Below are positions 2,039-27,394 of a stretch of 64,000 nt of DNA, piece by piece (the stretch's first letter is position 1; every line of letters starts with the position of its first letter). The notes under the pieces were generated by a model. That model saw nothing but the letters and a program-made list of their open reading frames with translations, made no database searches and was not told the origin of the DNA. A program made the position numbers and the translations under genes. The stretch is taken from the NCBI RefSeq assembly GCF_008386395.1, contig NZ_CP043761.1, positions 1,116,001 through 1,180,000 on the forward strand. The letters run 5' to 3'. Origin of the DNA: Paenibacillus sp. 37. Lineage in GTDB: Bacteria; Bacillota; Bacilli; Paenibacillales; Paenibacillaceae.

Positions 2039-3453
2039 TCATTCCTTCATTCGCTCCAGTGCTGGACATTCCCTATTATTATCCCTGCAATTTCCCTCTG
2101 ATTCATGAAGTGCTCCATCAGCAAGGATCCATCACAAGTCTTGCACTGCTGGCGGCAAGCCGGTTGTACAGCCTTCCATCGTGCGGGGATAACGGACTGG
2201 TGAAGCCTTATTTTCACAAACTGGATTATGTTGAGCCGATCTGGGAGATGTATGGTCAGCGAGAGCTGGACAGCTTCGAGGAAGGCAAGGCGCAGATTAG
2301 GCAGCATATCGGCGATGGTGGGCTTTTTTTGGCTACAGGAACCAGTTATCATCTGCCTTATTGTGAGGATTATCAGAATCCCGAATACATTCGCAAACAC
2401 GTGAAGCAAGGCTCCCGACTGCATCTGGTAGACCATTGGATTGCCGTGTATGGTCTGGAAGATGAGCATGTTCACGTCTATGATCCAGTGCCCTCCAAGT
2501 ACAAGGGGAAGGTTGCTCAAAGAGCCTTTCATGATTTCTGGAAAGGGAACCAATGCATACCCGAGCTTGCTCAGGCGAAGCGCAAAGAAAAACTCCGAAC
2601 GTTTGGCACCATGGACATTCGGGCAACTGTGCAGCTTGACTCTGCCGGGTACCGAGACATGTTGACCCAGGCGTTAACAACGCAGATTGAAGAATTTCTG
2701 ACAGGCCGGACGATTACACAAGGAGAGCGGAATTATTATTTTGGACATGCGGTGTCTCTGCAGCTCCTGGATACGTTGCATGGAACGAAAGAAGGGGATC
2801 AATCCAATGAAATGTTAATTTCGGGTCTGCTGTTCGATATGCGATGGAGCCGGTATTTTCTGCGAGATCTTCTTCAGGAGTCTGCCTTATGGCTAGGTTC
2901 ACCACTTGATCAATATGCAAGAAAATTCAACGACATCATTGTACGGTGGGAGAAGGCATACAATATGCTGCAGGTCAGCCGGATGAAGAATCACGAGCAC
3001 TGGAAAGTACAACTGACAGGTGCCATTAAAATGTTGGTCACGGATGAATGGCACTGGTATGAGTCGCTTCGACAGTCCATGCCTCAGGCAGATTGCTTTC
3101 AACGTCAGAACGTGCCAATGATTGAACAAGAACACAGGGAGGTTCTGCTTCGTATCGTGCTGGATAGTTGCCGGGAGTTAAATGCATACCATAATACATC
3201 GATTCCGCTTGGTGAGGGCGGTAACGCTCCGCTATACGGACGAAATGGGCAACTGGATTCGCTGGAACTCGTGTCATTGCTTGCTGTGGTGGAGCAGGGA
3301 ATCGAAGATCGATGGGGTACGGGAATGGGAGCTGCTCTGGCGGAGATAGCTGCTGCTTCCATGCCGGAAAGTCCCTATCAGACGGTAGGCTCACTTGTTG
3401 ATTATCTCGCACAACAATATTCGCCTGCCGGTGAGGAGGAAGCAAAATGTTAA
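2035..3453 (+). CDS. BtrH-like (butirosin biosynthesis H N-terminal) domain fused to a C-terminal acyl carrier protein
   Basis: 472 aa. The first ~150 residues resemble the BtrH N-terminal/C39-like thiol fold: a Cys in YYYPCNFPLIHEVLHQ, then GTSYHLPYC and HLVDHWIAVYGLEDEHVHVYDP, which supplies the His and Asp usual in this fold. In butirosin biosynthesis BtrH moves an acyl group from an acyl carrier protein to an amine. Residues ~170-370 are helical and unassigned. The last ~90 residues look like an acyl carrier protein, with the phosphopantetheine Ser in GQLDSLELVSLLAVVEQGIE. It overlaps its neighbours by 4 nt and 7 nt, and the downstream adenylating enzyme is the obvious candidate to load the carrier domain. 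Carrier and transferase in one chain is unusual and worth testing. Confidence 0.65.
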   Translation: MIIPSFAPVLDIPYYYPCNFPLIHEVLHQQGSITSLALLAASRLYSLPSCGDNGLVKPYFHKLDYVEPIWEMYGQRELDSFEEGKAQIRQHIGDGGLFLATGTSYHLPYCEDYQNPEYIRKHVKQGSRLHLVDHWIAVYGLEDEHVHVYDPVPSKYKGKVAQRAFHDFWKGNQCIPELAQAKRKEKLRTFGTMDIRATVQLDSAGYRDMLTQALTTQIEEFLTGRTITQGERNYYFGHAVSLQLLDTLHGTKEGDQSNEMLISGLLFDMRWSRYFLRDLLQESALWLGSPLDQYARKFNDIIVRWEKAYNMLQVSRMKNHEHWKVQLTGAIKMLVTDEWHWYESLRQSMPQADCFQRQNVPMIEQEHREVLLRIVLDSCRELNAYHNTSIPLGEGGNAPLYGRNGQLDSLELVSLLAVVEQGIEDRWGTGMGAALAEIAAASMPESPYQTVGSLVDYLAQQYSPAGEEEAKC

Positions 3454-4808
3454 ACCAATTCTTGCTTAAACGATTCGAGGAACAGGGACAGCATCCTGCA
3501 CTGATCTGGAAGGATCAGGAGTACAGCTATCAGTGGCTGCTGGAACGGGTTGGCATTATGGGTGAGTGGATTATAGCAGAAGGGCTGACGGGGCAACTTG
3601 TAACACTGGAGGATGACTATTCCCCATATGCAGCGGCGGCATTGGTTGCTTTGCTCGGACAAGGGTGTATCGTGCTCCCCATGGATCGGTACCTGGTTGA
3701 AGCCAAACGACAGGAATACATCGAACTGGCACAGGTGAAATGGCGGTTGGGCGTTGAAGAAGGCAAGCTATGCATTCGGCAAACGTGTGAAACTTCTGGA
3801 GAGGTTCCTGTGTTGTTAACTACGCTAGCACAGGAGGGTGTAGGAGGACTGGTACTCTTTTCATCCGGATCAACCGGAGTGAGTAAAGCGACTGTGCATC
3901 GTGCAGATCGGCTGTTACATCGTTTTCGGCGGCAGGTTCGGCCCTTGCGAACGATTCCATTCATGATGTTTGATCATATCGGCGGTGTGAATACAATGCT
4001 GCAATCCCTGTCCAGTGGGGGATGTCTGTGTATCATTGCGGATCGATCTCCCGAAGAAGTGTGCCGGACGATTGAGAAGTTTCGTGTACAGGCGCTGCCT
4101 GTCTCCCCAACATTCATGAATCTGTTGCTGCTGGGCAGAAATGATGAGGGGTATGACCTGTCCAGTCTCGAGGTTGTATCATACGGATCGGAAGTGATGC
4201 CTGAATCTGTACTGGCAGCCTGGAACCGGAGATTTCCACAGATCAGAACGATACAGGCCTATGGCATGTCTGAACTTGGTATTCTGCCAACCCGCTCCAA
4301 AGAACCAGGTTCTCTGCTGTTCTCCATTCAAGATGAAGAGGTCAAGTACCGGGTGGTGGAAGGAGAATTGCAGATTCGTACAGCAACAGCGATGATCGGA
4401 TATCTGAATGCACCATCACCCTTTACAGAGGATGGATGGCTGCGTACCGGAGATGAAGCCGTATTAGAGCAGGGGTACATTCGAATTTTGGGCCGCCGTT
4501 CGGAGATTATTAACATAGGGGGACGGAAGGTATATCCTGCCGAGGTTGAGGGTGTTCTGGAAGAGATGGAATGTATTGAAGCGGCGGTAGTTTCGGGAGA
4601 ACCGAGTGGTATCATGGGTCAGAGAGTGAAAGTGACTATCCGGCTGGCTACAGAATGTACTCTTACCGATCTGCGGCGGTCCATCTGGGAATATTGTCGG
4701 GACAAGCTGCCTTCATACAAGATTCCGCAGAAAATCGTAATTACACAGGGAGAACTCGTAAGTTCGAGAATGAAAAAAATCCGTAAACCGATGATGTCGA
4801 TATCCTGA
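3447..4808 (+). CDS. ANL-superfamily acyl-adenylating enzyme (AMP-dependent synthetase/ligase)
   Basis: 453 aa. ANL core motifs appear in order: A3 P-loop LVLFSSGSTGVSKATVH (~residue 130), FMMFDHIGG, A5 QAYGMSELG, A7 LRTGDEA, A8 GRRSEIINIGGRKVYPAEVE and a C-terminal SSRMKKIRKP that corresponds to the catalytic-lysine A10 segment. Such enzymes activate a carboxylic acid with ATP and pass it to CoA or a phosphopantetheine carrier. It begins inside the preceding gene (7-nt overlap ATGTTAA), so its partner is probably the acyl carrier domain fused there. The protein is somewhat shorter than typical acyl-CoA ligases (500-550 aa). The acid used cannot be read from the sequence. Confidence 0.8.
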   Translation: MLNQFLLKRFEEQGQHPALIWKDQEYSYQWLLERVGIMGEWIIAEGLTGQLVTLEDDYSPYAAAALVALLGQGCIVLPMDRYLVEAKRQEYIELAQVKWRLGVEEGKLCIRQTCETSGEVPVLLTTLAQEGVGGLVLFSSGSTGVSKATVHRADRLLHRFRRQVRPLRTIPFMMFDHIGGVNTMLQSLSSGGCLCIIADRSPEEVCRTIEKFRVQALPVSPTFMNLLLLGRNDEGYDLSSLEVVSYGSEVMPESVLAAWNRRFPQIRTIQAYGMSELGILPTRSKEPGSLLFSIQDEEVKYRVVEGELQIRTATAMIGYLNAPSPFTEDGWLRTGDEAVLEQGYIRILGRRSEIINIGGRKVYPAEVEGVLEEMECIEAAVVSGEPSGIMGQRVKVTIRLATECTLTDLRRSIWEYCRDKLPSYKIPQKIVITQGELVSSRMKKIRKPMMSIS

Positions 4809-8533: not shown

Positions 8534-8560
8534 TGATATTGATAATCATTATCAATATCA
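8534..8560 (+). promoter_or_regulatory. Fur box of the siderophore operon (perfect 27-bp palindrome)
   Basis: TGATATTGATAAT (8534-8546), a central C, and its exact reverse complement ATTATCAATATCA (8548-8560). The core differs from the classical 19-bp Fur consensus GATAATGATAATCATTATC at a single base. It immediately follows the -10 box of the only good promoter before the gene at 8629, implying iron repression of the whole operon. Confidence 0.9.
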
Positions 8561-8628: not shown

Positions 8629-9651
8629 GTGTTTCCGAAAGGGATTCATAATCTGCAAAACCGACTCATTATAAGCAAAGCGAGAGAAATGGGCATCACC
8701 TGTGAGCCACTTCTTGAGGGATGCGAAGATTTTCTGAAGCTGTCTGTAGGGGATAAAGAGATCATCATTAACAAGACCAGATCTCATCGTCTGCCGTTAA
8801 TCGCTGGACTGCTCGCGAAGAACAAGCAGGCATGTAATATGTTGCTGCATGAACAGGGGATGCCTGTACCATCATTTATCGTGATCCCGGAGATGGGGAG
8901 CGAAGCAGTAGCTTTTCTGAAAAAATACGGCTCCATTGTAGTGAAACCACTGGATGCGAGCAGCAGCATGGGCGTGACGTTGGATGTGCGTACCGCTGAT
9001 GAACTGGAGGCAGCCATTCGTCTTGCGAGTGTCCACGGCAGCAGCATTATGTTACAGCAATATGTGACCGGGATCGATTACAGAGTGCTGATTATCAACG
9101 GTGAAGTGGTGGCTGTGAACCAGTATCGACCTGTCTATGTCGAAGGAGACGGAACTTCAACCGTTCGGGCGTTAATTGAGCAGTTGAATCAGGATCGAAT
9201 CGCGATGACGAACATTGGCGAGTATGAAGCGTTTCCCCAGGTGGATGCAGAAACGGAACGACTGCTGGAGGTATTGCATGCACAAGGGACAACTCTGGAT
9301 GAAGTTCCTGCTGCTGGTGAAGAAATCGAGCTATATGATCTCCGTAACTCAGCCGCCGGAAAAATCAGTGAATTCTACAAGGATTGTACCGAAATCATTC
9401 ATCCCGAGAATGCGCGAATGATCGTTCAGGCGGCCCAAACTCTTCAGATTGATGTAGCAGGGGTCGATGTTCGTTGTCGTGATATCCGCACGCCGATCTC
9501 CAGAGAAGAAGGGGGCATTCTGGAAGTGAACGCCTTGCCGGATCTGACACACCACGTCTTTCCCCATGGGGGGACAACTCGTGATGTGGTTCGGTTATAT
9601 CTGGAATACTTGTGTCAGGAACAACTTGAATATAAGTCGTATAACTTATAA
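8629..9651 (+). CDS. ATP-grasp ligase, first gene of the siderophore operon
   Basis: 340 aa. The ATP-grasp fold is seen from GIHNLQNRLIISKA and NKTRSHRLPLIAGLLAKNKQ through the ATP-binding segment GSIVVKPLDASSSMGVTL (~102-119), YVTGIDYRVLIINGEVVAV, and a C-terminal metal site ILEVNALPDLTHH. It resembles the ATP-grasp part of cyanophycin synthetase and related carboxylate-amine ligases. The GTG start has GAGGAGGA 6 nt upstream. In the operon it would form an amide between a carboxylate and an amine, an extra step absent from the S. aureus sbn locus. The substrate is unknown. Confidence 0.75.
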   Translation: MFPKGIHNLQNRLIISKAREMGITCEPLLEGCEDFLKLSVGDKEIIINKTRSHRLPLIAGLLAKNKQACNMLLHEQGMPVPSFIVIPEMGSEAVAFLKKYGSIVVKPLDASSSMGVTLDVRTADELEAAIRLASVHGSSIMLQQYVTGIDYRVLIINGEVVAVNQYRPVYVEGDGTSTVRALIEQLNQDRIAMTNIGEYEAFPQVDAETERLLEVLHAQGTTLDEVPAAGEEIELYDLRNSAAGKISEFYKDCTEIIHPENARMIVQAAQTLQIDVAGVDVRCRDIRTPISREEGGILEVNALPDLTHHVFPHGGTTRDVVRLYLEYLCQEQLEYKSYNL

Positions 9652-9829
9652 CAACGTATAGATGACAATATATAACGAATATCAGATGATGGATGATAGA
9701 TACCATCATATATAAATCGGAACTTACCATGATTTTGAACCAAGACACCTTGCCATATATGAATAGTGCAGAACAAGAATCACAGGCAGCAGTTAAGCCT
9801 GAATCGATGATAAGGAGCGTTAAAGGGCT

Positions 9830-11185
9830 ATGTCAGTAGAAGTGCAGACGGAATATCTGAAGATGCAAAATGAGAAGGAGTCCAATGCAAGATCGTACCC
9901 CAGACATTTCCCGCTTGTCATTAGCAAGGCCCATGGGGTGAAGATTACGGATACGGAAGGCCGCGTATTCTACGATTGCCTGGCTGGTGCAGGAACATTG
10001 GCGCTAGGGCATAACCATGACACGGTGGTCAATGCCATTCGCGATGTCCTGGATCAGCAAATTCCGCTACATACACTGGATTTGGCAACGCCGCTGAAGC
10101 TCTCATATATGCAAGAACTGTTCTCCATTCTTCCAGCAGAGATGCAGAACAAGGCCAAAATCCAGTTCTGTGGTCCAACCGGAGCGGATGCCGTAGAAGC
10201 AGCCATTAAGCTGGTTAAACATGCAACAGGCGGCAAGTCCATTCTTGCCTTTCAGGGTGGTTATCACGGTTCGACCCAAGCAACGATGTCGATGAGTGGC
10301 AACCTGAGCAAGAAACAACATTTGCAAAGCCTGCTGCCGGATGTTCATTTCCTGCCTTTTCCTTATGAATACCGCTGCCCATTTGGTGTTGGTGAAGGCA
10401 TGACGGCCCGGTTAAGCGCACAGTATATCGAGAACTTGCTCGATGATAGCGAGAGCGGTATTGCCGCACCGTGCGGAGTCATTGTGGAGACGGTGCAGGG
10501 CGAGGGCGGGGCGATTCCGGCAGACATTGAATGGCTGAAGGAGCTGCGCCGAATCACAGCAGAGCGAAGCATTCCACTCATTATCGACGAAGTGCAGACA
10601 GGCATCGGACGCACAGGCCGAATGTTTTCATTTGAACATGCCGGAATTATACCCGATGTAATCATCTGCTCCAAAGCGGTCGGCGGAAGTCTGCCCATGT
10701 CTGTCGTCATCTATAAGGAAGAGCTGGACCAATGGCAGCCTGGTGCACACACAGGAACGTTCCGTGGCAATCAGCTGGCCATGGCTGCGGGACTTGCCAC
10801 ACTTCGTTATATCCGGGAACAGGATGTTCTACACAACGTGCATCTGCGCAGTGAGCAGTTCATGAATCAACTGAATGCATTGAAAGAGCGGTATGCAGAG
10901 ATTGGTGATGTGCGAGGCAGAGGATTGATGATTGGCGTTGAGGTGGTTGATCCAATGGGACGGAAGGATCGTCTGGGACATTATCTGCCTAATGGTGCGC
11001 TGGCTGAGTCTATTCAGCGTGAATGTTTCAAGAATGGACTAATTGTGGAACTGGGCGGGCGTCATTCAGCGGTTGTTCGTTTTCTGCCGCCACTGAATAT
11101 TACGGAACAAGAATCGGGCGCGATCCTGGCGATCTTTGAGAAATCGGTAGCTGAAGCGATTGCCTTAGCAACGGCTGCATGCTGA
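9830..11185 (+). CDS. dat: L-2,4-diaminobutyrate:2-oxoglutarate aminotransferase (RhbA/Dat type)
   Basis: 451 aa class III PLP aminotransferase. Signatures are the N-terminus YLKMQNEKESNARSYPRHFP and DCLAGAGTLALGHNH typical of RhbA/Dat, the phosphate-binding CGPTGADAVEAA, the PLP Asp in LIIDEVQTGIGRTG and the Schiff-base Lys in IICSKAVGG. The known reaction converts aspartate semialdehyde and glutamate to L-2,4-diaminobutyrate. In rhizobactin 1021 and Acinetobacter pathways this supplies a diamine; here it replaces the diaminopropionate enzymes SbnA/SbnB. AAGGAG lies 12 nt before the ATG. The stop overlaps the MFS gene start (ATGCTGA). Confidence 0.88.
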   Translation: MSVEVQTEYLKMQNEKESNARSYPRHFPLVISKAHGVKITDTEGRVFYDCLAGAGTLALGHNHDTVVNAIRDVLDQQIPLHTLDLATPLKLSYMQELFSILPAEMQNKAKIQFCGPTGADAVEAAIKLVKHATGGKSILAFQGGYHGSTQATMSMSGNLSKKQHLQSLLPDVHFLPFPYEYRCPFGVGEGMTARLSAQYIENLLDDSESGIAAPCGVIVETVQGEGGAIPADIEWLKELRRITAERSIPLIIDEVQTGIGRTGRMFSFEHAGIIPDVIICSKAVGGSLPMSVVIYKEELDQWQPGAHTGTFRGNQLAMAAGLATLRYIREQDVLHNVHLRSEQFMNQLNALKERYAEIGDVRGRGLMIGVEVVDPMGRKDRLGHYLPNGALAESIQRECFKNGLIVELGGRHSAVVRFLPPLNITEQESGAILAIFEKSVAEAIALATAAC

Positions 11186-12612
11186 AGCTGTCCCTGATGA
11201 AGAGGCATGCCGTATTACTCGCGATTCTGCTCGGTGCTTTTTCGCTGGTACTAACCAACAGTGCATTCAACCTGCTGCTGCCTTATTTTGTGCAATATTA
11301 TCAGATCTCTACGACAGCAGGAGGATGGATCATCGCCCTCTACATGCTCGCCATGACATTAACAATGCCACTGGCTTCCCTAATTGTGGACCGACTGGGG
11401 CGTAAGCAGACGTATATGTTGGGCATCAGTATCTATGGACTGTTCTCGGTGGCAGGTGCGTTGTTTTATCACTCCATCGAAGTACTCTTGCTGGTTCGTT
11501 TCATGCATGGGGTTGCCGCCGGGCTGATGATTCCGTTATCACTTGTGTTGCTGTTTGATGTATATGGACCGGAGGTAAGGGGACGAATTACAGGAGCGTG
11601 GGGGTTGCTGCTAATGCTGGCTCCTGCGGCTGGGCCAACGCTGGGCGGTTTCATCATTCAGTATGGACGGCTTGAAATGCTGTTCTGGCTTAATGTGCCG
11701 CTGGCTATATTCTCGTTCATCGGGTGCGGTCGAGTCATTCAGACCTATATCCCTGCACGTAGGAAAAAATGGCATCCATCCAGTGTCATAATGCTGATCT
11801 GCGCTGTAGGTGCCCTTAGTCTGGGGGTACAGTTGTACGCAAGTCCTGTCGTGGCAGTATGGGTACCTTGGATGCTGATTGCGCTTGGTGTGGTGTTGCT
11901 TATTCGTTTTGTCCAAACCGAGAATGGTCGCAAGGAACCACTGATCCGGTACCAGTTACTGCGGCGTAATGCCGTCTTTCCACTGACCGTGCTGATCTCG
12001 ACCATTCAGGATTGTGTCATGTTTGGCGTGATCTTTGCATTGCCGTTATTGTTCCAGGACGTCTTCCACCTGTCGCCGGCCCTGTCCGGTGCGTTGTTCA
12101 TTCCCTTGTCGATCTGTACAAGTCTGTTCATGTGGATTGGCGGCAGTTTGCTGGATCGCGGTCGGTCCATGCATTTTATCGCATGGGGTACGTTGCTGGT
12201 GTCCATATCGATCTTGTCGTTTGCGGTTCTGCCGATGGGAGCATCGATCTGGATCATCGGTATGCTCATGGCGTGCCGTGGAATTGGCGTTGGTCTGTCA
12301 GGCATGAGTATCTCTGCAATTGGCCTGCAAGCATTACCGGACGAAGACATGCACGAAGGGTCAGTGTTATCAACCACGATTGAGCGGCTGGCTTCTTCGT
12401 TTGCGGTGATGGGTATGACCCTGTATTACGATATGCGCTGGCAATGGCTAGCCGGGACAGGAACGTCCATGGAGATGGCAAAATGGGGAGCGCTCAAAGA
12501 GATCTGTATCGGACTTGGCTGTGCCATACTGCTTACACTTCCCCTGGTCTTACTTATAACCCGAAAGAAGGTTGGCATCATTGTTCGAGATGGAAAACAA
12601 GCTCCGGTCTGA
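11179..12612 (+). CDS. MFS transporter, probable siderophore exporter (DHA2/SbnD-like)
   Basis: 477 aa, hydrophobic throughout, with about 14 predicted membrane helices. MFS signatures are ALYMLAMTLTMPLASLIVDRLGRKQTYMLG (motif A region between helices 2 and 3, here quoted in two parts: ALYMLAMTLTMPL and DRLGRKQ) and the helix-5 motif C-like GPTLGGFI, typical of proton-driven exporters. It starts 7 nt inside the aminotransferase gene and is followed directly by an NIS synthetase, exactly as sbnD precedes sbnE in S. aureus. Export of the finished siderophore is the likely role. Confidence 0.82.
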   Translation: MLKLSLMKRHAVLLAILLGAFSLVLTNSAFNLLLPYFVQYYQISTTAGGWIIALYMLAMTLTMPLASLIVDRLGRKQTYMLGISIYGLFSVAGALFYHSIEVLLLVRFMHGVAAGLMIPLSLVLLFDVYGPEVRGRITGAWGLLLMLAPAAGPTLGGFIIQYGRLEMLFWLNVPLAIFSFIGCGRVIQTYIPARRKKWHPSSVIMLICAVGALSLGVQLYASPVVAVWVPWMLIALGVVLLIRFVQTENGRKEPLIRYQLLRRNAVFPLTVLISTIQDCVMFGVIFALPLLFQDVFHLSPALSGALFIPLSICTSLFMWIGGSLLDRGRSMHFIAWGTLLVSISILSFAVLPMGASIWIIGMLMACRGIGVGLSGMSISAIGLQALPDEDMHEGSVLSTTIERLASSFAVMGMTLYYDMRWQWLAGTGTSMEMAKWGALKEICIGLGCAILLTLPLVLLITRKKVGIIVRDGKQAPV

Positions 12613-14377
12613 GGCTGAGCAGCAGGCCCATGAACATTCGTGCAAGCTGTTGCTGAACTGTTACATACGTGAGCTTGCGCTAGAGAAAGAAAGCGATATT
12701 CGGATCAATCCGAATACGCTGACGTACGCGGTTGCTTTTCAAGCCAGCGGGGTGACGGTGACAGGTCGCTTGTCTTATTACTCTGCCATTGGGGAGCATG
12801 AATACCTCAGCATGGAATCTGGCGGGGAAACCGTGCATTATCGCGACCTGGTTCGTTGGATCACATCTGAATTAAGCGGGAATGGGGAACAGGGAGCGAG
12901 TTTGGATCAACGTGGAATGTTGAAGAGTGCGGTGGAAATGAAGAGTTCACTTGAGCTGGAGAATATACATCCATTGGGTGAAAATACGAACCGTGTCGAG
13001 GCGGCGTATGCCAGAGATTTTGCACAAAAGGTAGATAACAGTGTACGTAACCTTACCTTGTATATCGAACAAGCAGCGGGTCTCGACATCAACGACTATC
13101 GCACATCGGAACAGTCTTTGTTGGTTGGTCATCCGTTTCACCCGTTCCCGAAGAATTCCAAAGGCTTCAGCGAGCAGGATGTTCAGAAGTACAGTCCGGA
13201 GCTGCGCACATCGTTTCAACTCTGTTATATCGCGGTGAGGCAGGATGTCTACGTGCAGGAATGGGTCGATGACGAGGCGGCAATGGATTTGCATGATCTC
13301 CTGCGGAGTCATATGGAGCCTATTTTAAAAGGAAAGAGTGAGATGTATGGGCTGCTTCCCGTCCATCCATGGCAATACGCATATATATCTCGGTTGTCCG
13401 AGGTACAGCACTATATTCGAGATGAAAAATTAATTCTGCTTGGCAGTGCGGGGCCAATCGTCTATCCGACTTCTTCGGTCCGTACGGTATATGTTCCCGA
13501 ATGGAACTGCAATATCAAGCTGTCACTGAACATGCAGATCACCAACATGATTCGCACCAATAGTGCTGAGCAGATGCGCAGAACATTGGATGCCTCCAAA
13601 TACGTCAGCCAGCATGACTGTTTCGGTGCTGAACCGCACACCCATATTGCGTATGAGACAGGCGTAGCGACATGTAACTTTGATGATGAAGAGTTAACCA
13701 GTCTGTTTACGATAGCTTATCGGCCCGTTGAGTTTGACGTCGAGAATACGTATGTCTTATCCAGTCTGGTTGAAGCACCGATTCCCGGGATGCGGTCGCG
13801 ACTGATGACGATGCTGGGTGGTGGACGTGACATAGCTGAGCGCTGGATGGATCGTTATCTGGCATGTTCTCTGCTGCCGATTGTACGGGCGGCGGGAGAG
13901 AAAGGCATTCATTTTGAAGCCCATTTGCAGAATACGCTTGTGACATTAAAGGATGGCATGCCTGTGGATTTTATCGTCCGCGATCTGGAAGGGGTCAGTG
14001 TGGATGAGGAACTTATCCGTGAGCAGGATTGTGCTGCGTCCGATTTATTATTTTATTCGCGAGAGAACGCCTGGGCGCGGACATCGTACTACTTTATCGT
14101 CAATCATCTGGGGTCTCTGATTCATGCCATGGCGCGAGATGTGAACGTCCCGGAGGAGCATTTCTGGAAGCAAGTACGTGAGGTACTTGTGGAGGAACTG
14201 GAACGAACGGGCAATGCATATGTGCAACATCTGCTGATAACGGATGCATTTCTGGCCAAACAAAATCTGGTGAGTTGTCTAAGGGGTATCAGTCAGACTC
14301 CAGCCTACGTGCCAGTGAGCAATGTAATGAAACGAATAGGGAGTGAAGTGCGTGGGAGTCGTGGGATACAGGGCTGA
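12581..14377 (+). CDS. NIS siderophore synthetase, IucA/IucC family (synthetase 1, SbnE position)
   Basis: About 598 aa. The IucA/IucC N-terminal domain has the ATP-binding segment GHPFHPFPKNSKGFS (~185-198) and LPVHPWQYAYI; the C-terminal FhuF-like domain carries HFEAHLQNTLVTL and a conserved RDLEG. These enzymes adenylate a citrate carboxylate and couple it to an amine or alcohol. It lies right after the MFS exporter, the place of SbnE, which joins citrate to the first diamine in staphyloferrin B. Starts are ambiguous: TTG at 12581 has AAGAAGG at 9 nt, TTG at 12572 is too close to it, and ATG at 12590 is too far. It overlaps the MFS gene by ~30 nt. Confidence 0.85.
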   Translation: MFEMENKLRSEAEQQAHEHSCKLLLNCYIRELALEKESDIRINPNTLTYAVAFQASGVTVTGRLSYYSAIGEHEYLSMESGGETVHYRDLVRWITSELSGNGEQGASLDQRGMLKSAVEMKSSLELENIHPLGENTNRVEAAYARDFAQKVDNSVRNLTLYIEQAAGLDINDYRTSEQSLLVGHPFHPFPKNSKGFSEQDVQKYSPELRTSFQLCYIAVRQDVYVQEWVDDEAAMDLHDLLRSHMEPILKGKSEMYGLLPVHPWQYAYISRLSEVQHYIRDEKLILLGSAGPIVYPTSSVRTVYVPEWNCNIKLSLNMQITNMIRTNSAEQMRRTLDASKYVSQHDCFGAEPHTHIAYETGVATCNFDDEELTSLFTIAYRPVEFDVENTYVLSSLVEAPIPGMRSRLMTMLGGGRDIAERWMDRYLACSLLPIVRAAGEKGIHFEAHLQNTLVTLKDGMPVDFIVRDLEGVSVDEELIREQDCAASDLLFYSRENAWARTSYYFIVNHLGSLIHAMARDVNVPEEHFWKQVREVLVEELERTGNAYVQHLLITDAFLAKQNLVSCLRGISQTPAYVPVSNVMKRIGSEVRGSRGIQG

Positions 14378-16187
14378 AGCAGGCGGCAGGACAGAAGCGA
14401 TATACGTAAATGTACAGGAACGGATCATGCGGCAGACGCTGGAGGCGATGTGGTTCGAAGGCATTTTGGACAGTGATATGAGTGGAAGCGAATGGCGAAC
14501 CAGCGGCCTTACATCTTCCGGCGATTCTGTGGCGTACACGTGTGAAGCCGAACGAAAGTTTTCATTTGGCCGAGTGAAGGTGAAGAAGGGTTCGATTCAA
14601 AGGGAAGGCGTACCCTGCACCGATCTGGATCTGTTTTTGGAGGAAATCGTGCTGAACTCATTGAAGGGTGCCAATGTGACGGCTTTTATTCAGGAGCTGC
14701 TCGAAACGATGGCAAAGGACAGCCAGTGCCGGGCGATATTGCCGTTGAACATTCCGCTAGAAGATCGGCATTATGATGCGCTCGAAAGTCACATGACCGA
14801 CGGTCATCTGTATCACCCGAGTTACAAGTCGAGGTTAGGGTTTTCTCTGAAAGACAATCTGGCCTATGGTCCTGAGTTTAACTCTGAAGTTTCATTAGTC
14901 TGGGTGGCTGTGAAAAAAGAACTCGCTCAGACCGCTGTATCCGCGGGATATAGTTCTGAAGAATTGGTAAGGCAGCATCTGACTGCGGAGGACGTAGAGC
15001 GATTTCAAGAGGTTCTGGAGGGTGACGGTAAGACAGGTTCTGACGCGGATGATCGATATGTGTTCATTCCGGTTCATCCGTGGCAGTGGGAGCACCAGTT
15101 GGAGTCGGTATATGCCCGTCAACTGATGGATGGAGACATCGTGTATCTCGGTCCATCGTCTTCGCCCTATCGTGCACAGCAGTCAATCCGTTCGCTGTCG
15201 AACCGGGTGAACCCCGAAGCTCCTTACATTAAGCTGGCTCTCAGCATTACCAACACGTCGAGCACGCGGATTCTGGCACAGCATACGACCCAGAACGCAC
15301 CGTTGATCAGCGATTGGCTGGATAATCTCGTTCGTGAAGATGAGCTGTTGCAGCGGGCGCAGTTTGGCCTTTTAAAAGAAATCATGGGACTGTCGTTCCG
15401 TTATGAGCAGTTGCCTGCAACGCAGTATGGACGGGCCTACGGCACACTCGGAGGCATCTGGCGGGAGAATGTATCGGTTCACCTGAAGCAAGGTGAGACG
15501 GCGTGGCCGCTGAATGCGCTGATGTTGGTACAAGCGGATGGTGTTCCATTTATCCAGGATGCTGTAGAACGACATGGCGTGGAAAAGTGGAGCGAGGCCC
15601 TCGTTCGCACGGTTACACTGCCGATTATCCATCTGCTCTATGCACACGGGATTGCACTGGAATCTCATGCTCAGAATATCATTTTGGTACTGGAAGACGA
15701 TCTCCCGAAACGGATTATTATCAAGGATCTGCATGATGGTGTTCGCTATGTACCGGATCAACTGTTACATCCGGAAAGGGCACCGAAGCTGAACCCCGAG
15801 CCGGAAACTCATCGCAAGTTCAATCGGTATTCTTTCATCTATGCGGAAGATGTGTCGGAAGTCCGTGACTATACGTATGACGCATTCTTCTTTATCTGTA
15901 TGACGGATATTGCGTTGGCCTTTGAGAAGTTTGGATTGTCAGAGCAGTCATTCTGGCAGCTGTGCGCAGGTGTAATTGTGAATTATCAGAAGCAGCACCC
16001 GGAATACGCAGAGCGGTTTGTTGCATTTGACCTTTTTGCCGAAGATGCACTGATCGAAGAGATGACCAAGCGCCGTCTGTATGGGGATGGGGAGTTGTAT
16101 TTCCGTAAGGCGAGCAATCCGCTCAAGGTATCGAAGGATGCACTGGAATCACAGGGAACGCTTGAATTAAAGGGAATCGTCGAATGA
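14352..16187 (+). CDS. NIS siderophore synthetase, IucA/IucC family (synthetase 2, SbnF position)
   Basis: About 611 aa. Family motifs are DGHLYHPSYKSRLGFSLKD, VHPWQWEHQL, an ATP/nucleotide loop SLSNRVNPEAPYIKLALSIT, and ESHAQNIILVL followed by IIKDLHDGVR. The HPSYKSRxGF form is the one seen in type C synthetases such as IucC, AlcC and SbnF, which condense a mono-substituted citrate intermediate with a second amine. GTG at 14352 is chosen because AGGGAG lies 8 nt upstream; GTG at 14343 overlaps that site. It overlaps synthetase 1 by 26 nt and the next gene by 4 nt (ATGA). Confidence 0.85.
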   Translation: MGVVGYRAEAGGRTEAIYVNVQERIMRQTLEAMWFEGILDSDMSGSEWRTSGLTSSGDSVAYTCEAERKFSFGRVKVKKGSIQREGVPCTDLDLFLEEIVLNSLKGANVTAFIQELLETMAKDSQCRAILPLNIPLEDRHYDALESHMTDGHLYHPSYKSRLGFSLKDNLAYGPEFNSEVSLVWVAVKKELAQTAVSAGYSSEELVRQHLTAEDVERFQEVLEGDGKTGSDADDRYVFIPVHPWQWEHQLESVYARQLMDGDIVYLGPSSSPYRAQQSIRSLSNRVNPEAPYIKLALSITNTSSTRILAQHTTQNAPLISDWLDNLVREDELLQRAQFGLLKEIMGLSFRYEQLPATQYGRAYGTLGGIWRENVSVHLKQGETAWPLNALMLVQADGVPFIQDAVERHGVEKWSEALVRTVTLPIIHLLYAHGIALESHAQNIILVLEDDLPKRIIIKDLHDGVRYVPDQLLHPERAPKLNPEPETHRKFNRYSFIYAEDVSEVRDYTYDAFFFICMTDIALAFEKFGLSEQSFWQLCAGVIVNYQKQHPEYAERFVAFDLFAEDALIEEMTKRRLYGDGELYFRKASNPLKVSKDALESQGTLELKGIVE

Positions 16188-18370
16188 GAATGAACACGCT
16201 GAAGGAAAAAATCTCACGTAAACAGCCCGTGTATGGCCTTTTTGTATCCATACCGCACCCAGTCATCATTGAGATGATCGGACATGCGGAATATGACTTT
16301 GTCATTATTGATCTGGAACATGCCGCAACATCGATGGATTCGGTAGAGGAATTGATCCGGGCGGCGGAACTGGTAGACCTAACTCCGCTGGTACGTATCT
16401 CGAAGGTAGAGCGAGCGGAGATTCTTAAAGTGCTGGACTGTGGCGCACAGGGCATCGTTATTCCGCATGTCGAGCAGTTGGAGCAGGTGGAAGAAGCGGT
16501 TCGTCACGCTTACTATCATCCGGTTGGCATGCGGAGTCTGAATAGTGGTCGTCCTGGGGTATTTGGGAAATATCCTCTCACGGGATACATTGGGGAAGCG
16601 AACGAACAAGTGATGATTGTCCCCATGATTGAAAGTGCAGAGGGAGTTCGGCAAAGTGCACAGATTCTGTCTCACCCTCGGGTGAGTTTTGTATTGGAAG
16701 GTGCGGCGGATCTGTCGCAATCCCTCGGCGTGCCATGGCAGACCGAGCACCCGGATGTGAGACGTGCGCTGGATGAATTGCATGCTACCGCGCAGCAGCG
16801 CGAAGTACCTTATGCTACGGTCACGAGAGGCATGGAAGACATGGCGCTCTGGGCTGAGCGGGGAGTACATATATACGTGCTGGGGGATGACCGAAATACG
16901 GCATTTCGGGCGTATGCCCAAAAACGGAATGACTACAGGAAATGCGGGTGGGCAGATATGAAACCAAGTGTATGGCAGGCGATCGATGAACTTCAACGAG
17001 GGATGGAAGACCCGGTATGTGCGTATATCTATGATCTGGCTGGCATTCAGGAACAGGTACGTCAGATGCTGGGCAGCATGCCCGAAAATACACAGTTGTT
17101 CTATGCCATCAAGGCGAATCCTGATCCACGCATCATTGAGGCGTTGCTTCCATTGGTAAAGGGCTTTGAAGTGGCTTCCATTGGAGAGTTGCTCAAAGTT
17201 AGAGCTGTAAGTCGAGAGGTTCCAATTCTGTTTGGAGGTCCGGGTAAAAAGGAGAACGAGCTGCGGTTAGCAATCGAGAATGACGTGAGTTATATCCATG
17301 TGGAAAGTCTGCTGGAGCTGCGGCGCATCATTGCGATTGCGAAAGATAGAGAGAAGGAGCAGGCGCAGGTACAGAAGAACAGGCAGCAGCAAGAATGGGA
17401 GCAGAAACTGGGGCTGAGGTACACGCAGGAGTACAGAGAGGAACCTATTCAAGGACAGCAAAAGCAGGATCAAGAACATGCGCCCCAACAGAAACAACAA
17501 CAGAAGCAAACGCAGGAAGTACGCATTCTGCTCCGAATCAATCTGCGAAGCAGTACGTTACCCCGGACGAAGATTGTCATGGGCGGTGGGCCAAGTCCTT
17601 TTGGCATCGATGAAGAGTCGGTGGAAGAAGCGATCGAACTCATTCGTGTGGAAGGCGCGGGTATTGTTCGGTTGAGCGGGTTCCATTTTCACTCTTTGTC
17701 CAACAATATGGACGCCAGGCTGCATGCTGAGATGATTGAGCTGTATTTGCAAAAGGTAGAGCAATGGCAGCAACAATATGGTCTTCCTGTGGAAGTGGTG
17801 AATGCAGGAGGGGGATTCGGTGTCACTTATGATGGAAGTCCCGGATTCGATTGGTCGTTGTTTACTTCCCTGCTGGAACAAAGTGAAGCCAGACAACGCC
17901 TTGTTTCACGTGGAGGTGAGTTGTATTTCGAATCTGGTCGACTGCTTGTGGCAGACCACGGGTATTATGCCGCAGAGGTTACGGATATCAAAACTTCTCA
18001 TGATCAGCATTTTGTTGTGTTAAGAGGAGGTACGCACCATAATCGTCTGCCTGCTTCATGGGGGCATAACCATCCGTTTCAGATCATGACGACGGAGCGT
18101 TGGAAGCATTCATTTGCCCGCCCAGAGGTAAGGGATGGTCGAGTCCATATCGTAGGTGAGCTGTGTACACCCAAGGATCGCATGCATTCTGATGCGGAGG
18201 TAGCACTGCTGCGGGTGGGAGATATTGTTTTGTTTGAAAAGTCTGGAGCTTATTGCTGGACCATCTCGCATCATGATTTTCTGGGGCATCCGCACCCGGC
18301 ATTCCATTATCTAACGGAGGACAATAATCATGTCAACACTGATGAAGCATTCCAGTCTGCAAGCCGCTGA
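16184..18370 (+). CDS. Fusion of SbnG-like citrate synthase (HpcH/HpaI fold) and SbnH-like PLP decarboxylase
   Basis: 728 aa. Residues ~5-250 are an HpcH/HpaI aldolase-type domain with IIDLEH (His46), LVRIS (Arg71), the metal-ligand Glu150 in MIVPMIES and Asp176 in GAADLSQSLG; SbnG of S. aureus, same fold, makes citrate for staphyloferrin B. Residues ~262-728 are a fold-type III PLP decarboxylase like SbnH: Lys310 in LFYAIKANPD, GFHFHSLS, NAGGGFG, ESGRLLVADHG and the dimer-interface GELCTPKD. In sbn these are separate adjacent genes. Residues ~388-444 are a Gln/Lys/Glu-rich low-complexity insert within the barrel domain, ending just before VRILLRINL. It starts by ATGA overlap with synthetase 2 and overlaps synthetase 3 by 41 nt. 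Confidence 0.85.
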   Translation: MRMNTLKEKISRKQPVYGLFVSIPHPVIIEMIGHAEYDFVIIDLEHAATSMDSVEELIRAAELVDLTPLVRISKVERAEILKVLDCGAQGIVIPHVEQLEQVEEAVRHAYYHPVGMRSLNSGRPGVFGKYPLTGYIGEANEQVMIVPMIESAEGVRQSAQILSHPRVSFVLEGAADLSQSLGVPWQTEHPDVRRALDELHATAQQREVPYATVTRGMEDMALWAERGVHIYVLGDDRNTAFRAYAQKRNDYRKCGWADMKPSVWQAIDELQRGMEDPVCAYIYDLAGIQEQVRQMLGSMPENTQLFYAIKANPDPRIIEALLPLVKGFEVASIGELLKVRAVSREVPILFGGPGKKENELRLAIENDVSYIHVESLLELRRIIAIAKDREKEQAQVQKNRQQQEWEQKLGLRYTQEYREEPIQGQQKQDQEHAPQQKQQQKQTQEVRILLRINLRSSTLPRTKIVMGGGPSPFGIDEESVEEAIELIRVEGAGIVRLSGFHFHSLSNNMDARLHAEMIELYLQKVEQWQQQYGLPVEVVNAGGGFGVTYDGSPGFDWSLFTSLLEQSEARQRLVSRGGELYFESGRLLVADHGYYAAEVTDIKTSHDQHFVVLRGGTHHNRLPASWGHNHPFQIMTTERWKHSFARPEVRDGRVHIVGELCTPKDRMHSDAEVALLRVGDIVLFEKSGAYCWTISHHDFLGHPHPAFHYLTEDNNHVNTDEAFQSASR

Positions 18371-20177
18371 ACGCCAGATTATGGCGGATCTGATGAATTC
18401 ATTTTTGGCCGAGCAATTACTCCCACTGGAGGATCACCCATTCATTAATTTTGCCGCAGCACCTGCACCATTCAGACGATTGTATAAGGAATATGACGGC
18501 GAAGAGCAGATACAGAATGGTGCTTCTGACATTAGATTGCATACGCAAGGTGTACTGTGTCTGATTGAAACAGGAGTGAGACAAGCGATTCAGTGGGTTC
18601 AGGGTTCAGCAATATATGAGGAGAAACCAGATGGAAGCTGGGTTCTCCTTGATTCTGCGGCAGAAGTTGGACGTGCGGTGTTACAGAGGGCTTTGTCGGA
18701 TGGGGCTTATGCGCAGCCTGGAGTTGCGGAGTTCCTAGCTAGTCTGGATATTGCTGTGGAGCAGTACGCTCTGGGCTGGGAACAAGTTCAGTATCTGTCC
18801 GCCTGCGTTCCTGCCTCTGCTTATGAGTGGTTTATCAAAGGGGAGCGCGTTGCGGCATTACGGGATCGTCCATTCCACCCATCGTCCAAAGCCAAGGTGG
18901 GATTCAACGCAGAAGATGTTACACAGTATGCAGCGGAATTCGGGAAGGCGATTTCGTTACGCTGGGTGGCTATACGGCTGGATGCCGTGCAGCAAGGTTG
19001 CGAAGATGGGTTGTCCATTTTGGACGTCTTAGACGATGTTCAGCGAGGAATGGTGGAGGCCGAGTTTGCCCGAAAAGGGATCACGCTCTACGAATATCTG
19101 CCGATGCCTGTTCATCCGTGGCAATTGCAGCATGTGATCCTGCCTCGCTTCACTGGAGAGATTGAAGAGGGCAGCATTGTTGTATTGGATATTGAAGCGG
19201 GCGACGTACAGGCCACATCCTCTCTGCGCTCGATGGCCCCATCAACCGAATCTAATCTGATGCTCAAACTACCCGTTAGTGTGCTGTCGCTGGGGGCTGC
19301 TCGTTATCTGCCAGTAGTCAAACTGTTGAATGGTCTTGCTGGAGAACAGATGTTAAGACAGGCCGTTGCTTGTGACGAGACGTTGAAGGACAAGGTATAT
19401 ATGTGTGAAGAGCAGAACTGGTGGGGGTTCATGCCCGAATCCATGGGATTGTTCGACGATCATCCCCGGCATCTGGCTGCACAGATTCGTGTGTATCCTC
19501 CTGAATTGTTGGATGAATCCTACAAAGTCATCCCTATGGCTGCGCTGGGTGTGAATCTGGATGGACATCATCTATTAACGGAGATTCTGGGAGATGACCT
19601 TAGCAGTACGGACGTGGTGGAATTCTATAAGAGTATAGCTACGACGTTCTATGATATCGTGATGCGTCTGTTCAAGGTGGGTGTTGTACCTGAGATTCAT
19701 GGTCAGAACTGCTGTCTGGTGTTACGGGATAATCAGGTAAAAGGTCTATTGTTCCGCGATCATGATTCCGTGCGTCTGCATCAGCCTTATCTGGACAAAC
19801 ATGGCATTGCAGACCCTGCCTATCATATTCGACCTGGCTACTCGAACAGTCTGTATAACGAGACGATCCAGAAGCTGATCTTTTATGTTCAGTCGCTCGG
19901 GACGCAGGTGAATCTGGCTGCGATCATGGAGGCACTGAGCGAGGTGTATCACATCCCGGAAACGAAGTTATGGGAGATCACGGAGCAGGCTTGGAAGGAA
20001 GCGCTGACTCATGTGCAGCTTCCTGAAGGTGACCGGGCCGAGCTCGCTCATGCGGTGTTCGAGAGCGAGGCGTGGCCCGTGAAGTTGGTTGTCCGTCCGC
20101 TGCTTGAAGCAGACGGAGTGCCTGGCGCGATGCCATCGGGCAAAGGCATAGGGTGGAACCCTTTTCACAAGGAATAG
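18330..20177 (+). CDS. NIS siderophore synthetase, IucA/IucC family (synthetase 3, possibly SbnC-like)
   Basis: 615 aa. Motifs are GERVAALRDRPFHPSSKAKVG (quoted to Gly), VHPWQLQHVILP, an ATP-site loop ATSSLRSMAPSTESNLMLKL, and PEIHGQNCCLVL with LLFRDHDSVRLH in the C-terminal domain. Of the three synthetases it is the most divergent. With positions E and F occupied, it would by elimination take the SbnC role, attaching 2-oxoglutarate (type B chemistry); this is inference. GGAGG is 9 nt before the ATG. It is the last gene of the operon and is followed by a terminator at 20220-20258. Confidence 0.8.
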   Translation: MSTLMKHSSLQAAERQIMADLMNSFLAEQLLPLEDHPFINFAAAPAPFRRLYKEYDGEEQIQNGASDIRLHTQGVLCLIETGVRQAIQWVQGSAIYEEKPDGSWVLLDSAAEVGRAVLQRALSDGAYAQPGVAEFLASLDIAVEQYALGWEQVQYLSACVPASAYEWFIKGERVAALRDRPFHPSSKAKVGFNAEDVTQYAAEFGKAISLRWVAIRLDAVQQGCEDGLSILDVLDDVQRGMVEAEFARKGITLYEYLPMPVHPWQLQHVILPRFTGEIEEGSIVVLDIEAGDVQATSSLRSMAPSTESNLMLKLPVSVLSLGAARYLPVVKLLNGLAGEQMLRQAVACDETLKDKVYMCEEQNWWGFMPESMGLFDDHPRHLAAQIRVYPPELLDESYKVIPMAALGVNLDGHHLLTEILGDDLSSTDVVEFYKSIATTFYDIVMRLFKVGVVPEIHGQNCCLVLRDNQVKGLLFRDHDSVRLHQPYLDKHGIADPAYHIRPGYSNSLYNETIQKLIFYVQSLGTQVNLAAIMEALSEVYHIPETKLWEITEQAWKEALTHVQLPEGDRAELAHAVFESEAWPVKLVVRPLLEADGVPGAMPSGKGIGWNPFHKE

Positions 20178-20219
20178 AGGTTAAAGTGAGTTCAAAGCTG
20201 CATAAAGTATTACAAAATA

Positions 20220-20258
20220 AGAGGTGACTTGAGATAATTCAGGTCACTTTTTAGATTT
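20220..20258 (+). terminator. Intrinsic terminator of the siderophore operon
   Basis: GAGGTGACTTGA pairs with TTCAGGTCACTTT around a short AT loop (GTGAC/GTCAC core plus TGA/TTCA) and is followed by TTTTTAGATTT. It comes ~45 nt after the last synthetase gene. Confidence 0.75.
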
Positions 20259-20386
20259 GGTTAACGATCAACTTGCAGTTCAAAGTGTAATAATTACTGA
20301 ACTATATACAGTTTTCATGCAGGGAATGTCATTTCCATGACGAAACTTCTAATTAAGTTAGAAATAAGCAAGTTATGGAGGAATTT

Positions 20387-21394
20387 ATGAGTAAAAATAA
20401 TTGGTTTATTAGAGCCGGAGAGAATGCATATCTCTTCGAAGAGTTCAAAGAAACACAAATGATAGCCATTGGTTGGAATGAAGTAGGTTCATTGGCCCAA
20501 GTAAGACATATCGATGATGTGAAGAAGCGACTTCGTAACGAGTATCCTGACTATAAGGATGGCAAAGTAAATATAACAGCGGGCCAGTTAATCAGATTTG
20601 CTAATGAAATGAAAGTAGGAGATTTGGTTGTTACATATAATCCTCAAACACGCGAGTATCTGATTGGGGAAATTACGTCAGACTATGAATTTGGTGAAGG
20701 GGTTATTTCCGACAAAAATCACTATAGAAAGGTGTTGTGGAACGGGCTAGTTAATCGAGATGTTTTAACAGCGAACACACGGAATTCCCTAGGTTCGATA
20801 ATGACTCTTTTTGCATTGCAAAATGAAACAGTGAAGGAACTGATCCATTTTTTGAAATCCAAAAGTGCTGAGTCTTTTGAATCACAACCGGAAGAGACTG
20901 AGAAAGAACAGGCAGAACTAGATACAATCAAGGAAGATGTAATTGAAAGAGCACATGAATTTATAAAGGACAAATTCAATCATTTAGATTGGGAAGAAAT
21001 GCAGAGTCTGGTAGCTGGTGTCTTAAGAGGCATGGGATACAAAACAAGAATATCTGTAAAAGGGCCTGATCGCGGAAGAGATATTATTGCATCGCCAGAT
21101 GGTTTGGGGCTACAACAGCCTAGAATTATGGTGGAAGTCAAACATAGGAAAAACGCGATGGGTTCCAATGAAATTCGAAGTTTTATCGGAGGATTAAGAC
21201 CCGGTGATCAAGGGGTTTATGTTTCAACAGGTGGATTTACCAGAGAGGCTAAATATGAAGCAGAACGTTCTAACATTCCAGTATCTTTGGTAGATGCAGA
21301 TCTACTGGTAGAGCTGATTAATCAGCATTATGATGCATTTGATTCAGAGGCTAAATCATTAATGCCCCTAAAGAAGATATATTGGCCTCTATAA
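20387..21394 (+). CDS. Mrr-type restriction endonuclease with N-terminal EVE/PUA-like domain
   Basis: About 335 aa. The N-terminal ~150 residues (NNWFIRAGENAYLFEEF, MIAIGW, FANEMKVGDLVVTYNPQTREY) look like an EVE/PUA-like module, a fold that reads modified bases. A charged linker (EEVEKEQ-type) leads to an Mrr catalytic domain: LVAGVLRGMGYKT, GPDRGRDIIASPDG and the PD-(D/E)xK core IMVEVKHR, then YVSTGGFTREA. Such proteins are usually type IV restriction enzymes that cut DNA with foreign modification. The start is ATG 20387, since the upstream ATG (20375) is part of the GGAGG site. It has its own terminator and is transcribed alone. Confidence 0.78.
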   Translation: MSKNNWFIRAGENAYLFEEFKETQMIAIGWNEVGSLAQVRHIDDVKKRLRNEYPDYKDGKVNITAGQLIRFANEMKVGDLVVTYNPQTREYLIGEITSDYEFGEGVISDKNHYRKVLWNGLVNRDVLTANTRNSLGSIMTLFALQNETVKELIHFLKSKSAESFESQPEETEKEQAELDTIKEDVIERAHEFIKDKFNHLDWEEMQSLVAGVLRGMGYKTRISVKGPDRGRDIIASPDGLGLQQPRIMVEVKHRKNAMGSNEIRSFIGGLRPGDQGVYVSTGGFTREAKYEAERSNIPVSLVDADLLVELINQHYDAFDSEAKSLMPLKKIYWPL

Positions 21395-27352: not shown

Positions 27353-27394
27353 GGGCATATATACTGTGTGCCTTGGCCTAAGGAGATGACCATT

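Follow-up and report, generated by a model that had tools for sequence, protein, structure and literature searches.

Which iron carrier would be made by an operon that joins staphyloferrin B-like synthetases to the diamino-acid supply of achromobactin? The question is raised by a 64,000-nucleotide stretch of the genome of Paenibacillus sp. 37 (contig NZ_CP043761.1, positions 1,116,001 to 1,180,000; hereafter the window), in which seven open reading frames (ORFs) at 8629-20177 encode, in this order, an ATP-grasp ligase, an L-2,4-diaminobutyrate (Dab) aminotransferase, a major facilitator superfamily (MFS) transporter, two NRPS-independent siderophore (NIS) synthetases, an ORF fusing SbnG-like and SbnH-like halves, and a third NIS synthetase. 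We consider the chances about even that this operon is Fur-controlled and serves a citrate-based siderophore whose synthesis has been rebuilt around Dab. Since the gene set looks like a cross between staphyloferrin B and achromobactin with an extra joining enzyme, the product is probably a citrate-based iron carrier not yet described. The initial annotation had proposed an sbn-type logic rebuilt around Dab; the sbn-type front half and the Dab supply stand, whereas achromobactin, the known Dab counterpart of staphyloferrin B according to the available excerpt of PMC3179956, and the ATP-grasp ligase at 8629-9651 had been overlooked. The main features are the following.

8540..8554, + strand: Fur box, a perfect 7-1-7 palindrome with 0 mismatches to the consensus
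8629-20177, + strand: operon of seven ORFs, all overlapping except for a 178-bp gap after the first
8629..9651, + strand: ATP-grasp ligase, cyanophycin-synthetase/GshF-like, first operon gene (Pfam RimK/GSH-S_ATP/Dala_Dala_lig_C)
9830..11185, + strand: 2,4-diaminobutyrate aminotransferase, AcsF-type (NCBIfam NF005393, 727 bits, cut-off 671)
11179..12612, + strand: DHA2-type MFS exporter (PF07690, 143.5 bits; best NCBIfam model TIGR00711, DHA2-type, below its cut-off)
12572..14377, + strand: NIS synthetase 1, type A, SbnE-like (trees; AcsD E442 and R501 have aligned counterparts)
14343..16187, + strand: NIS synthetase 2, type C, SbnF/AcsC-like (NF033586, SbnF, 500 bits, below the cut-off of 900; tree)
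16184..16948, + strand: SbnG/AcsB-like HpcH/HpaI aldolase domain (4tv5, 204 bits, residues 3-244)
16949..18370, + strand: SbnH-like pyridoxal 5'-phosphate (PLP) decarboxylase domain, PF02784/PF00278 (6knh, about 338-341 bits)
18330..20177, + strand: NIS synthetase 3, type B, SbnC/AcsA-like (7cbb, 274 bits; NF033583, SbnC, 380 bits, below the cut-off of 700; trees)

Family and structure searches bore out, each in its annotated place, the three IucA/IucC synthetases, the MFS protein, the SbnG-like and SbnH-like activities and the Dab aminotransferase. The three synthetases all carry PF04183 and PF06276, and PF04183 has no further match in the genome (7.62 Mb, two contigs); the close relatives of the window proteins come from bacteria named Paenibacillus, including P. 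amylolyticus and P. xylanexedens. The aminotransferase is 57% and 50% identical to its counterparts in the acs-type clusters of Thalassospira and Sodalis, respectively. The lack of SbnA and SbnB, the L-diaminopropionate-forming enzymes of staphyloferrin B synthesis, was already pointed out in the initial annotation and extends to the whole genome: the SbnB model TIGR03944 has 0 matches, and the SbnA model TIGR03945 has six, none over the cut-off (best 251.7 versus 349.95 bits). This model gives below-cut-off matches in 14/14 control genomes too, again none over the cut-off.

A family survey placed these observations in context. In total, 295 genomes were searched, of which 107 had a synthetase-1 match; 20 of the better matches were fetched with wider surroundings, 20 further ones were fetched, and a scan of named genomes confirmed the best 80 of 534. 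The resulting 129 labelled loci (labels based on BLAST to a reference set, E<=1e-15) comprise 123 with distinct synthetase sequences, the six repeats, all in the sbnA/B group, being included in the signature and alignment counts below. A total of 80 loci (74 distinct) contain sbnA and/or sbnB and 38 have a Dab aminotransferase as sole diamino-acid gene; by BLAST, L162 alone combines the two routes, and its aminotransferase, with 28% identity to the references, branches far away from the others in the aminotransferase tree. Three loci are pvs-type (L055, L057 and L059) and eight are labelled "other", with neither diamino-acid route seen, one of them being the aerobactin locus. The acs references are two plasmid loci (Sodalis and Thalassospira), named by gene content after the accessible Table 3 of PMC3329529. 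The Dab clusters fall into three layouts: type I (22 loci; ATP-grasp, aminotransferase, MFS, synthetases 1 and 2, aldolase, decarboxylase, synthetase 3), type II (5 loci), which is type I without the ATP-grasp gene, and type III (9 loci; aminotransferase, synthetase 1, MFS, synthetase 2, synthetase 3). The aminotransferase lies inside the operon in 22/22 type I loci, and the MFS gene was not found in five of these 22 (L045, L047, L048, L051 and L088). The type III loci, from Paenibacillus, Brevibacillus and others, are L070, L071, L075, L100, L107, L110, L115, L116 and L121.

The stretch 8629-20177 reads as one closely packed operon whose genes would be co-transcribed. Its Fur box lies 74 bp 5' of the GTG start of the ATP-grasp gene. 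In 22/22 type I loci, a box with up to two mismatches occurs close to where the ATP-grasp ORF starts, versus 0.7% of shuffled stretches (shuffles keeping base composition only). Near the aminotransferase start, such a box is found in 14/14 type II and III loci and in 0/22 type I loci (shuffles 0.4%), and none is present upstream of synthetase 2 in the 22 type I loci. The ATP-grasp gene of type I clusters hence opens the iron-regulated unit. As it also precedes the aminotransferase in 20/20 wider loci, a chance neighbourhood was rejected: the ATP-grasp gene belongs to the siderophore system.

The descent of the enzymes was followed in quick trees with SH-aLRT (Shimodaira-Hasegawa-like approximate likelihood ratio test) support only, and in approximately unbiased (AU) tests whose groups were named after the first trees had been seen. 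The synthetase 1 tree omits 13 near-duplicate loci, ORFs of <500 aa and, as a labelled cluster, the aerobactin locus (IucA kept); further sets dropped 16 (synthetase 3/decarboxylase) and 26 (synthetase 2/aldolase/aminotransferase) more loci to thin redundant groups, and for the AU tests 43 loci were selected, to which the window was added (44, 37 and 35 rows, depending on the gene). RhbC/RhbF, AsbA/AsbB and the S. aureus SbnE lie outside these sets. Synthetase 1 of the window falls within an SbnE-type clade (starred support of 97, 107 rows) that includes Staphylococcus pseudintermedius L165, and the synthetase 1 proteins of Dab clusters form one clade nested in it (99, starred, with four "other" loci; 100, starred, in a smaller set). 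The acs/pvs-type synthetase 1 proteins form a separate clade (94), and uniting the Dab-cluster proteins with the acs-type rows (AcsD) was rejected (AU, p 0.00032), as was uniting the decarboxylase with AcsE (p 0.0001). IucA does not fall in the Sbn clade and has a long branch; with this absence of grouping with aerobactin, the position of synthetase 1 answers the aerobactin side of the phylogenetic check proposed in the initial annotation. Moreover, BLAST with E. coli IucB/IucD (E<=1e-15) gave no match in type I loci, and neither IucB nor IucD was found among the eight window ORFs scanned for families. In the synthetase 3 tree, acs-type AcsA lies inside the Dab clade (95, starred), its exclusion being rejected (p 0.038), and acs-type rows join the Dab clade in the synthetase 2 and aldolase trees too, with weaker support (91 and 90, not starred). 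The SbnG-like domain is 50% identical to the Sodalis acs-type aldolase. The best solved relative of synthetase 2 by sequence is AsbB, from the petrobactin pathway, in which AsbA/AsbB-type synthetases work with the catechol genes asbC-F.

Taken as gene histories, the trees show a mosaic: synthetase 1 and the decarboxylase derive from the SbnE/SbnH side, and the other two synthetases and the aldolase belong to a Dab lineage shared with AcsC, AcsA and AcsB. The initial prediction of a siderophore homologous to but distinct from staphyloferrin B takes no account of achromobactin, with whose AcsC, AcsA and AcsB these three proteins group. The simplest reading of the trees is one switch from diaminopropionate (Dap) to Dab inside the sbn lineage: a single swap of the diamino-acid supply, from sbnA/B to the Dab aminotransferase, within the SbnE lineage would be enough to explain the Dab clade. 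Achromobactin would then be composed of a vibrioferrin-like front that uses serine and a Dab back half, the window keeping a diamino-acid front.

In the active site of synthetase 1, AcsD E442 and R501, whose roles are taken from the available part of PMC3323832, have conserved counterparts, and so has K563, for which a Lys was assigned by motif that is kept in 23/23 type I, 97/97 other and 5/5 acs/pvs rows of the alignment. SbnH binds the citryl group through R304, S308, W309 and K347, with H379 near (excerpt of PMC7857480), and the window decarboxylase has counterparts of all five. The signature "SW" plus "SNN" is found in all 22 readable rows among the 23 of type I and in 5/5 type II rows, and in 75/75 readable sbnA/B-type rows (of 77) the W is preceded by S (67) or A (8); the 5/5 acs/pvs-type decarboxylases have "AQ" for S308-W309 and "SHQ" for "SNN". 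The initial SbnH-like assignment is borne out by this signature, which is SbnH-type rather than AcsE-type and favours an N-citryl-diamino acid over O-citryl-serine as decarboxylase substrate.

The ATP-grasp ligase has cyanophycin synthetase and GshF as nearest solved relatives, cyanophycin synthetase being the best by sequence and fold (TMq 0.81; confident predicted fold, pLDDT 93.3). An alignment of 26 rows, which drew on 25 of 120 listed matches (of 150), has 19 invariant columns, including K66, K106, R152, D280, E299 and N301. The family is compact (~340 aa), and among the best 120 of 150 matches, the named ones down to 42% identity are Paenibacillus, Cohnella, Paenibacillaceae and one labelled Bacillus; below 42% the next drop is to 35%. 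The window ligase resembles the ATP-grasp domain of cyanophycin synthetase and GshF in fold and sequence but differs in being stand-alone and embedded in a siderophore operon. A relationship to PvsA was discarded, as BLAST at 1e-5 gave no match to the ATP-grasp proteins of the three pvs-type loci. Ligases of the cyanophycin synthetase/GshF type activate the carboxyl group of N-acylated amino acids or peptides and couple an amino acid to it; by analogy, we infer that the free alpha-carboxylate of a citryl-Dab arm would be the preferred acceptor site.

These elements suggest a pathway that can be read from the gene order onwards. The aminotransferase would make Dab and the SbnG-like half citrate, SbnG's role being citrate making. 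Synthetase 1, of the SbnE type, would couple a diamino acid to citrate; with no SbnB and no SbnA above the cut-off, Dab is the likeliest candidate. The SbnH-like half would decarboxylate N-citryl-Dab to N-citryl-1,3-diaminopropane, a conversion that is plausible on the sequence evidence. Synthetase 2 would add Dab at the other citrate carboxyl, and synthetase 3 would attach 2-oxoglutarate to free amines, a step known from staphyloferrin B and achromobactin. The ATP-grasp enzyme would probably add one more amide bond, for instance on a free Dab carboxylate, and the MFS protein would export the product. Without such an addition, the calculated [M+H]+ of a product with Dab and 1,3-diaminopropane would be 477.183 with one 2-oxoglutarate and 605.194 with two, compared with 592.162 for achromobactin and 449.151 for staphyloferrin B. 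For uptake, 31 binding-protein matches are spread over the genome, 0 of them within the window, and a FecCD-type permease or binding protein adjoins the cluster in 9/22 type I loci. A literature search covering titles and abstract starts, with most subscription journals outside its reach, returned no description of this cluster.

Extended to the family, the proposal becomes more tentative: it is possible, though we would not call it probable, that a Paenibacillaceae-wide NIS class decarboxylates N-citryl-Dab to a 1,3-diaminopropane arm and adds a residue by means of a cyanophycin-synthetase-like ligase, which would give an sbn/acs-type pathway a decarboxylase of new specificity and an ATP-grasp step of a new kind, with achromobactin as a chimera that joins this Dab lineage to a vibrioferrin-like front. 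Such a route is testable and links two textbook siderophores, staphyloferrin B and achromobactin. If the chemistry is true, it closes the gap between the decarboxylases of citryl-diaminopropionate (SbnH) and of citryl-ornithine (FigC), and brings an ATP-grasp ligase into sbn/acs-type pathways, in bacteria that are common on plants and in soil.

Several observations weigh against the Dab-based pathway. According to the parts available of PMC3323832 and PMC7857480, respectively, AcsD turns over L-Dab barely above background and FigA/FigC show no reaction with Dab; no tested precedent for Dab at step one was found in the searched literature, as far as its accessible text goes. At the position of AcsD R299, synthetase 1 has Gln in 23/23 type I rows, against Arg in 94/97 others and 5/5 acs/pvs rows, and the residue beside the K563 counterpart is Q, R or K in 23/23 type I rows and Ala in 97/97 others. 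In the decarboxylase, the Phe that precedes SbnH R304 in 75/75 readable sbnA/B-type rows is replaced by N (19), H (2) or L (1) in 22/22 readable type I rows (23 in all); K347-D348 is followed in type I by "RMH" (14), "RLH" (6) or "QLY" (2), most others having "V/I-L-A", and C (20) or A (2) occupies the position of SbnH G374. The type I stems are long in six trees (0.59-1.26), and the Dab decarboxylases are supported as one clade by 85 only. Two Halomonadaceae loci of the Dab clade (L131 and L135) have neither a Dab aminotransferase nor sbnA/B in the fetched stretch, and type III loci are without decarboxylase or aldolase within theirs, which suggests a type III siderophore with two undecarboxylated Dab arms. 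The substitutions near the citryl contacts and the long stems may reflect a substrate other than N-citryl-Dab; serine or another substrate is possible, given the changes beside the citryl pocket. The same substitutions and stems suggest that the gain of the ATP-grasp gene was accompanied by a change of intermediate.

Three other products can account for parts of this evidence. The ATP-grasp enzyme could supply a new substrate, such as a Dab-containing dipeptide or an extended citryl-Dab, to yield a scaffold unlike both staphyloferrin B and achromobactin, the decarboxylase then acting on a larger intermediate. The single clade formed by ATP-grasp-type clusters on long stems in six trees, the decarboxylase changes before R304, after K347-D348 and at G374, and the two invariably altered synthetase 1 positions are all in line with this idea, but the citryl contacts R304, S308, W309, K347 and H379 are retained and old age or relaxed constraint can also give long stems, so that we regard it as rather unlikely. 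Plain achromobactin was the first hypothesis drawn from gene content, which fits acsF, yhcA, acsD, acsC, acsB, acsE and acsA (Table 3 of PMC3329529, as available). Achromobactin or a close analogue would require that synthetase 1 use L-serine, that the decarboxylase yield citryl-ethanolamine and that Dab enter only at the second citrate carboxyl. No dedicated gene is needed for serine, and the window shares with achromobactin the Dab aminotransferase, a DHA2-type MFS protein (32% identical to that of the Sodalis acs-type cluster) and, in a common clade, synthetases 2 and 3 and the aldolase. However, its synthetase 1 and decarboxylase are rejected as AcsD/AcsE kin by the trees and AU tests, which led us to reject an achromobactin-type origin of the front half, its pocket signature is not AcsE-type, an ATP-grasp gene is added, and the acs references are two plasmid loci named by gene content. 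As a chemical outcome, achromobactin is kept as an unlikely product.

True staphyloferrin B, which consists of citrate, Dap, ethylenediamine and 2-oxoglutarate, would need diaminopropionate from an unrelated enzyme; it would agree with the SbnE-, SbnF- and SbnC-type synthetases, SbnG-like aldolase, SbnH-type decarboxylase and MFS protein that the window has in common with sbnA-I. With neither SbnB nor an SbnA over the cut-off in the genome, a Dab aminotransferase in every type I operon, an added ATP-grasp gene and type I substitutions beside the SbnH citryl pocket, it is very improbable. The vibrioferrin operon (pvsABCDE) likewise has an ATP-grasp gene next to those for NIS synthetases and a PLP decarboxylase related to that of the window, but the PvsE-type pocket signature differs and the ATP-grasp proteins of the three pvs-type loci gave no BLAST match at 1e-5. 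For the comparison with schizokinen and rhizobactin 1021, whose pathways use a free-Dab decarboxylase (RhbB type) with RhbC/RhbF synthetases, the decarboxylase of the window operon belongs to PF02784/PF00278. The reading that we prefer remains the Dab-based pathway described above.

Three further features lie within or just after the operon.

16938..16962, + strand: junction of the SbnG-SbnH fusion; separate frames in relatives, the window being one base longer
17348..17515 (approximate limits), + strand: Q/E/K/R-rich insert in the decarboxylase barrel, 70 residues where 17 are usual
20218..20253, + strand: terminator-like hairpin downstream of the operon (by a consensus scan only, which found 1 against a mean of 0.2 in shuffles)

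The SbnG-like and SbnH-like halves share one 728-aa ORF (16184-18370) in the window. In 16/16 relatives examined, aldolase and decarboxylase are in different frames and the decarboxylase begins at the ATGA where the aldolase frame stops; in L044, the aldolase frame ends one codon earlier. A DNA alignment with four relatives shows that the window is one base longer at the gene overlap, which puts both halves in one frame. None of the best 120 of 352 matches covers >65% of the fused query, and in the predicted structure residues 236-257 form a linker of low confidence. The fusion, which no other genome examined shows, is either private or a sequencing error, and it may be an error; as this genome stands alone among those compared, an innovation was rejected.

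The SbnH-like barrel of one Paenibacillus subgroup bears a fast-varying Q/E/K/R-rich insert within the enzyme core. The corresponding stretch is 17 residues long in 64/64 readable sbnA/B-type, 5/5 type II and 12/22 readable type I sequences (window counted), and spans 17-106 residues among 114 readable of the best 120 of 352 matches. It is predicted as a long helix followed by a low-confidence segment.

Elsewhere in the window, a protein with an Mrr-type restriction endonuclease domain (PF04471) is encoded just 3' of the operon (20375-21394), and a collagen-like protein (PF01391, PF13799) at 27368-28447 contains a 54-bp tandem repeat of 6.7 copies (27726-28089). At 659-4808, three consecutive + strand ORFs encode an esterase (PF00756), a protein with a BtrH_N match below the cut-off (24.4 vs 29.7 bits) and an AMP-binding enzyme (PF00501), and perhaps form a small biosynthetic cluster.

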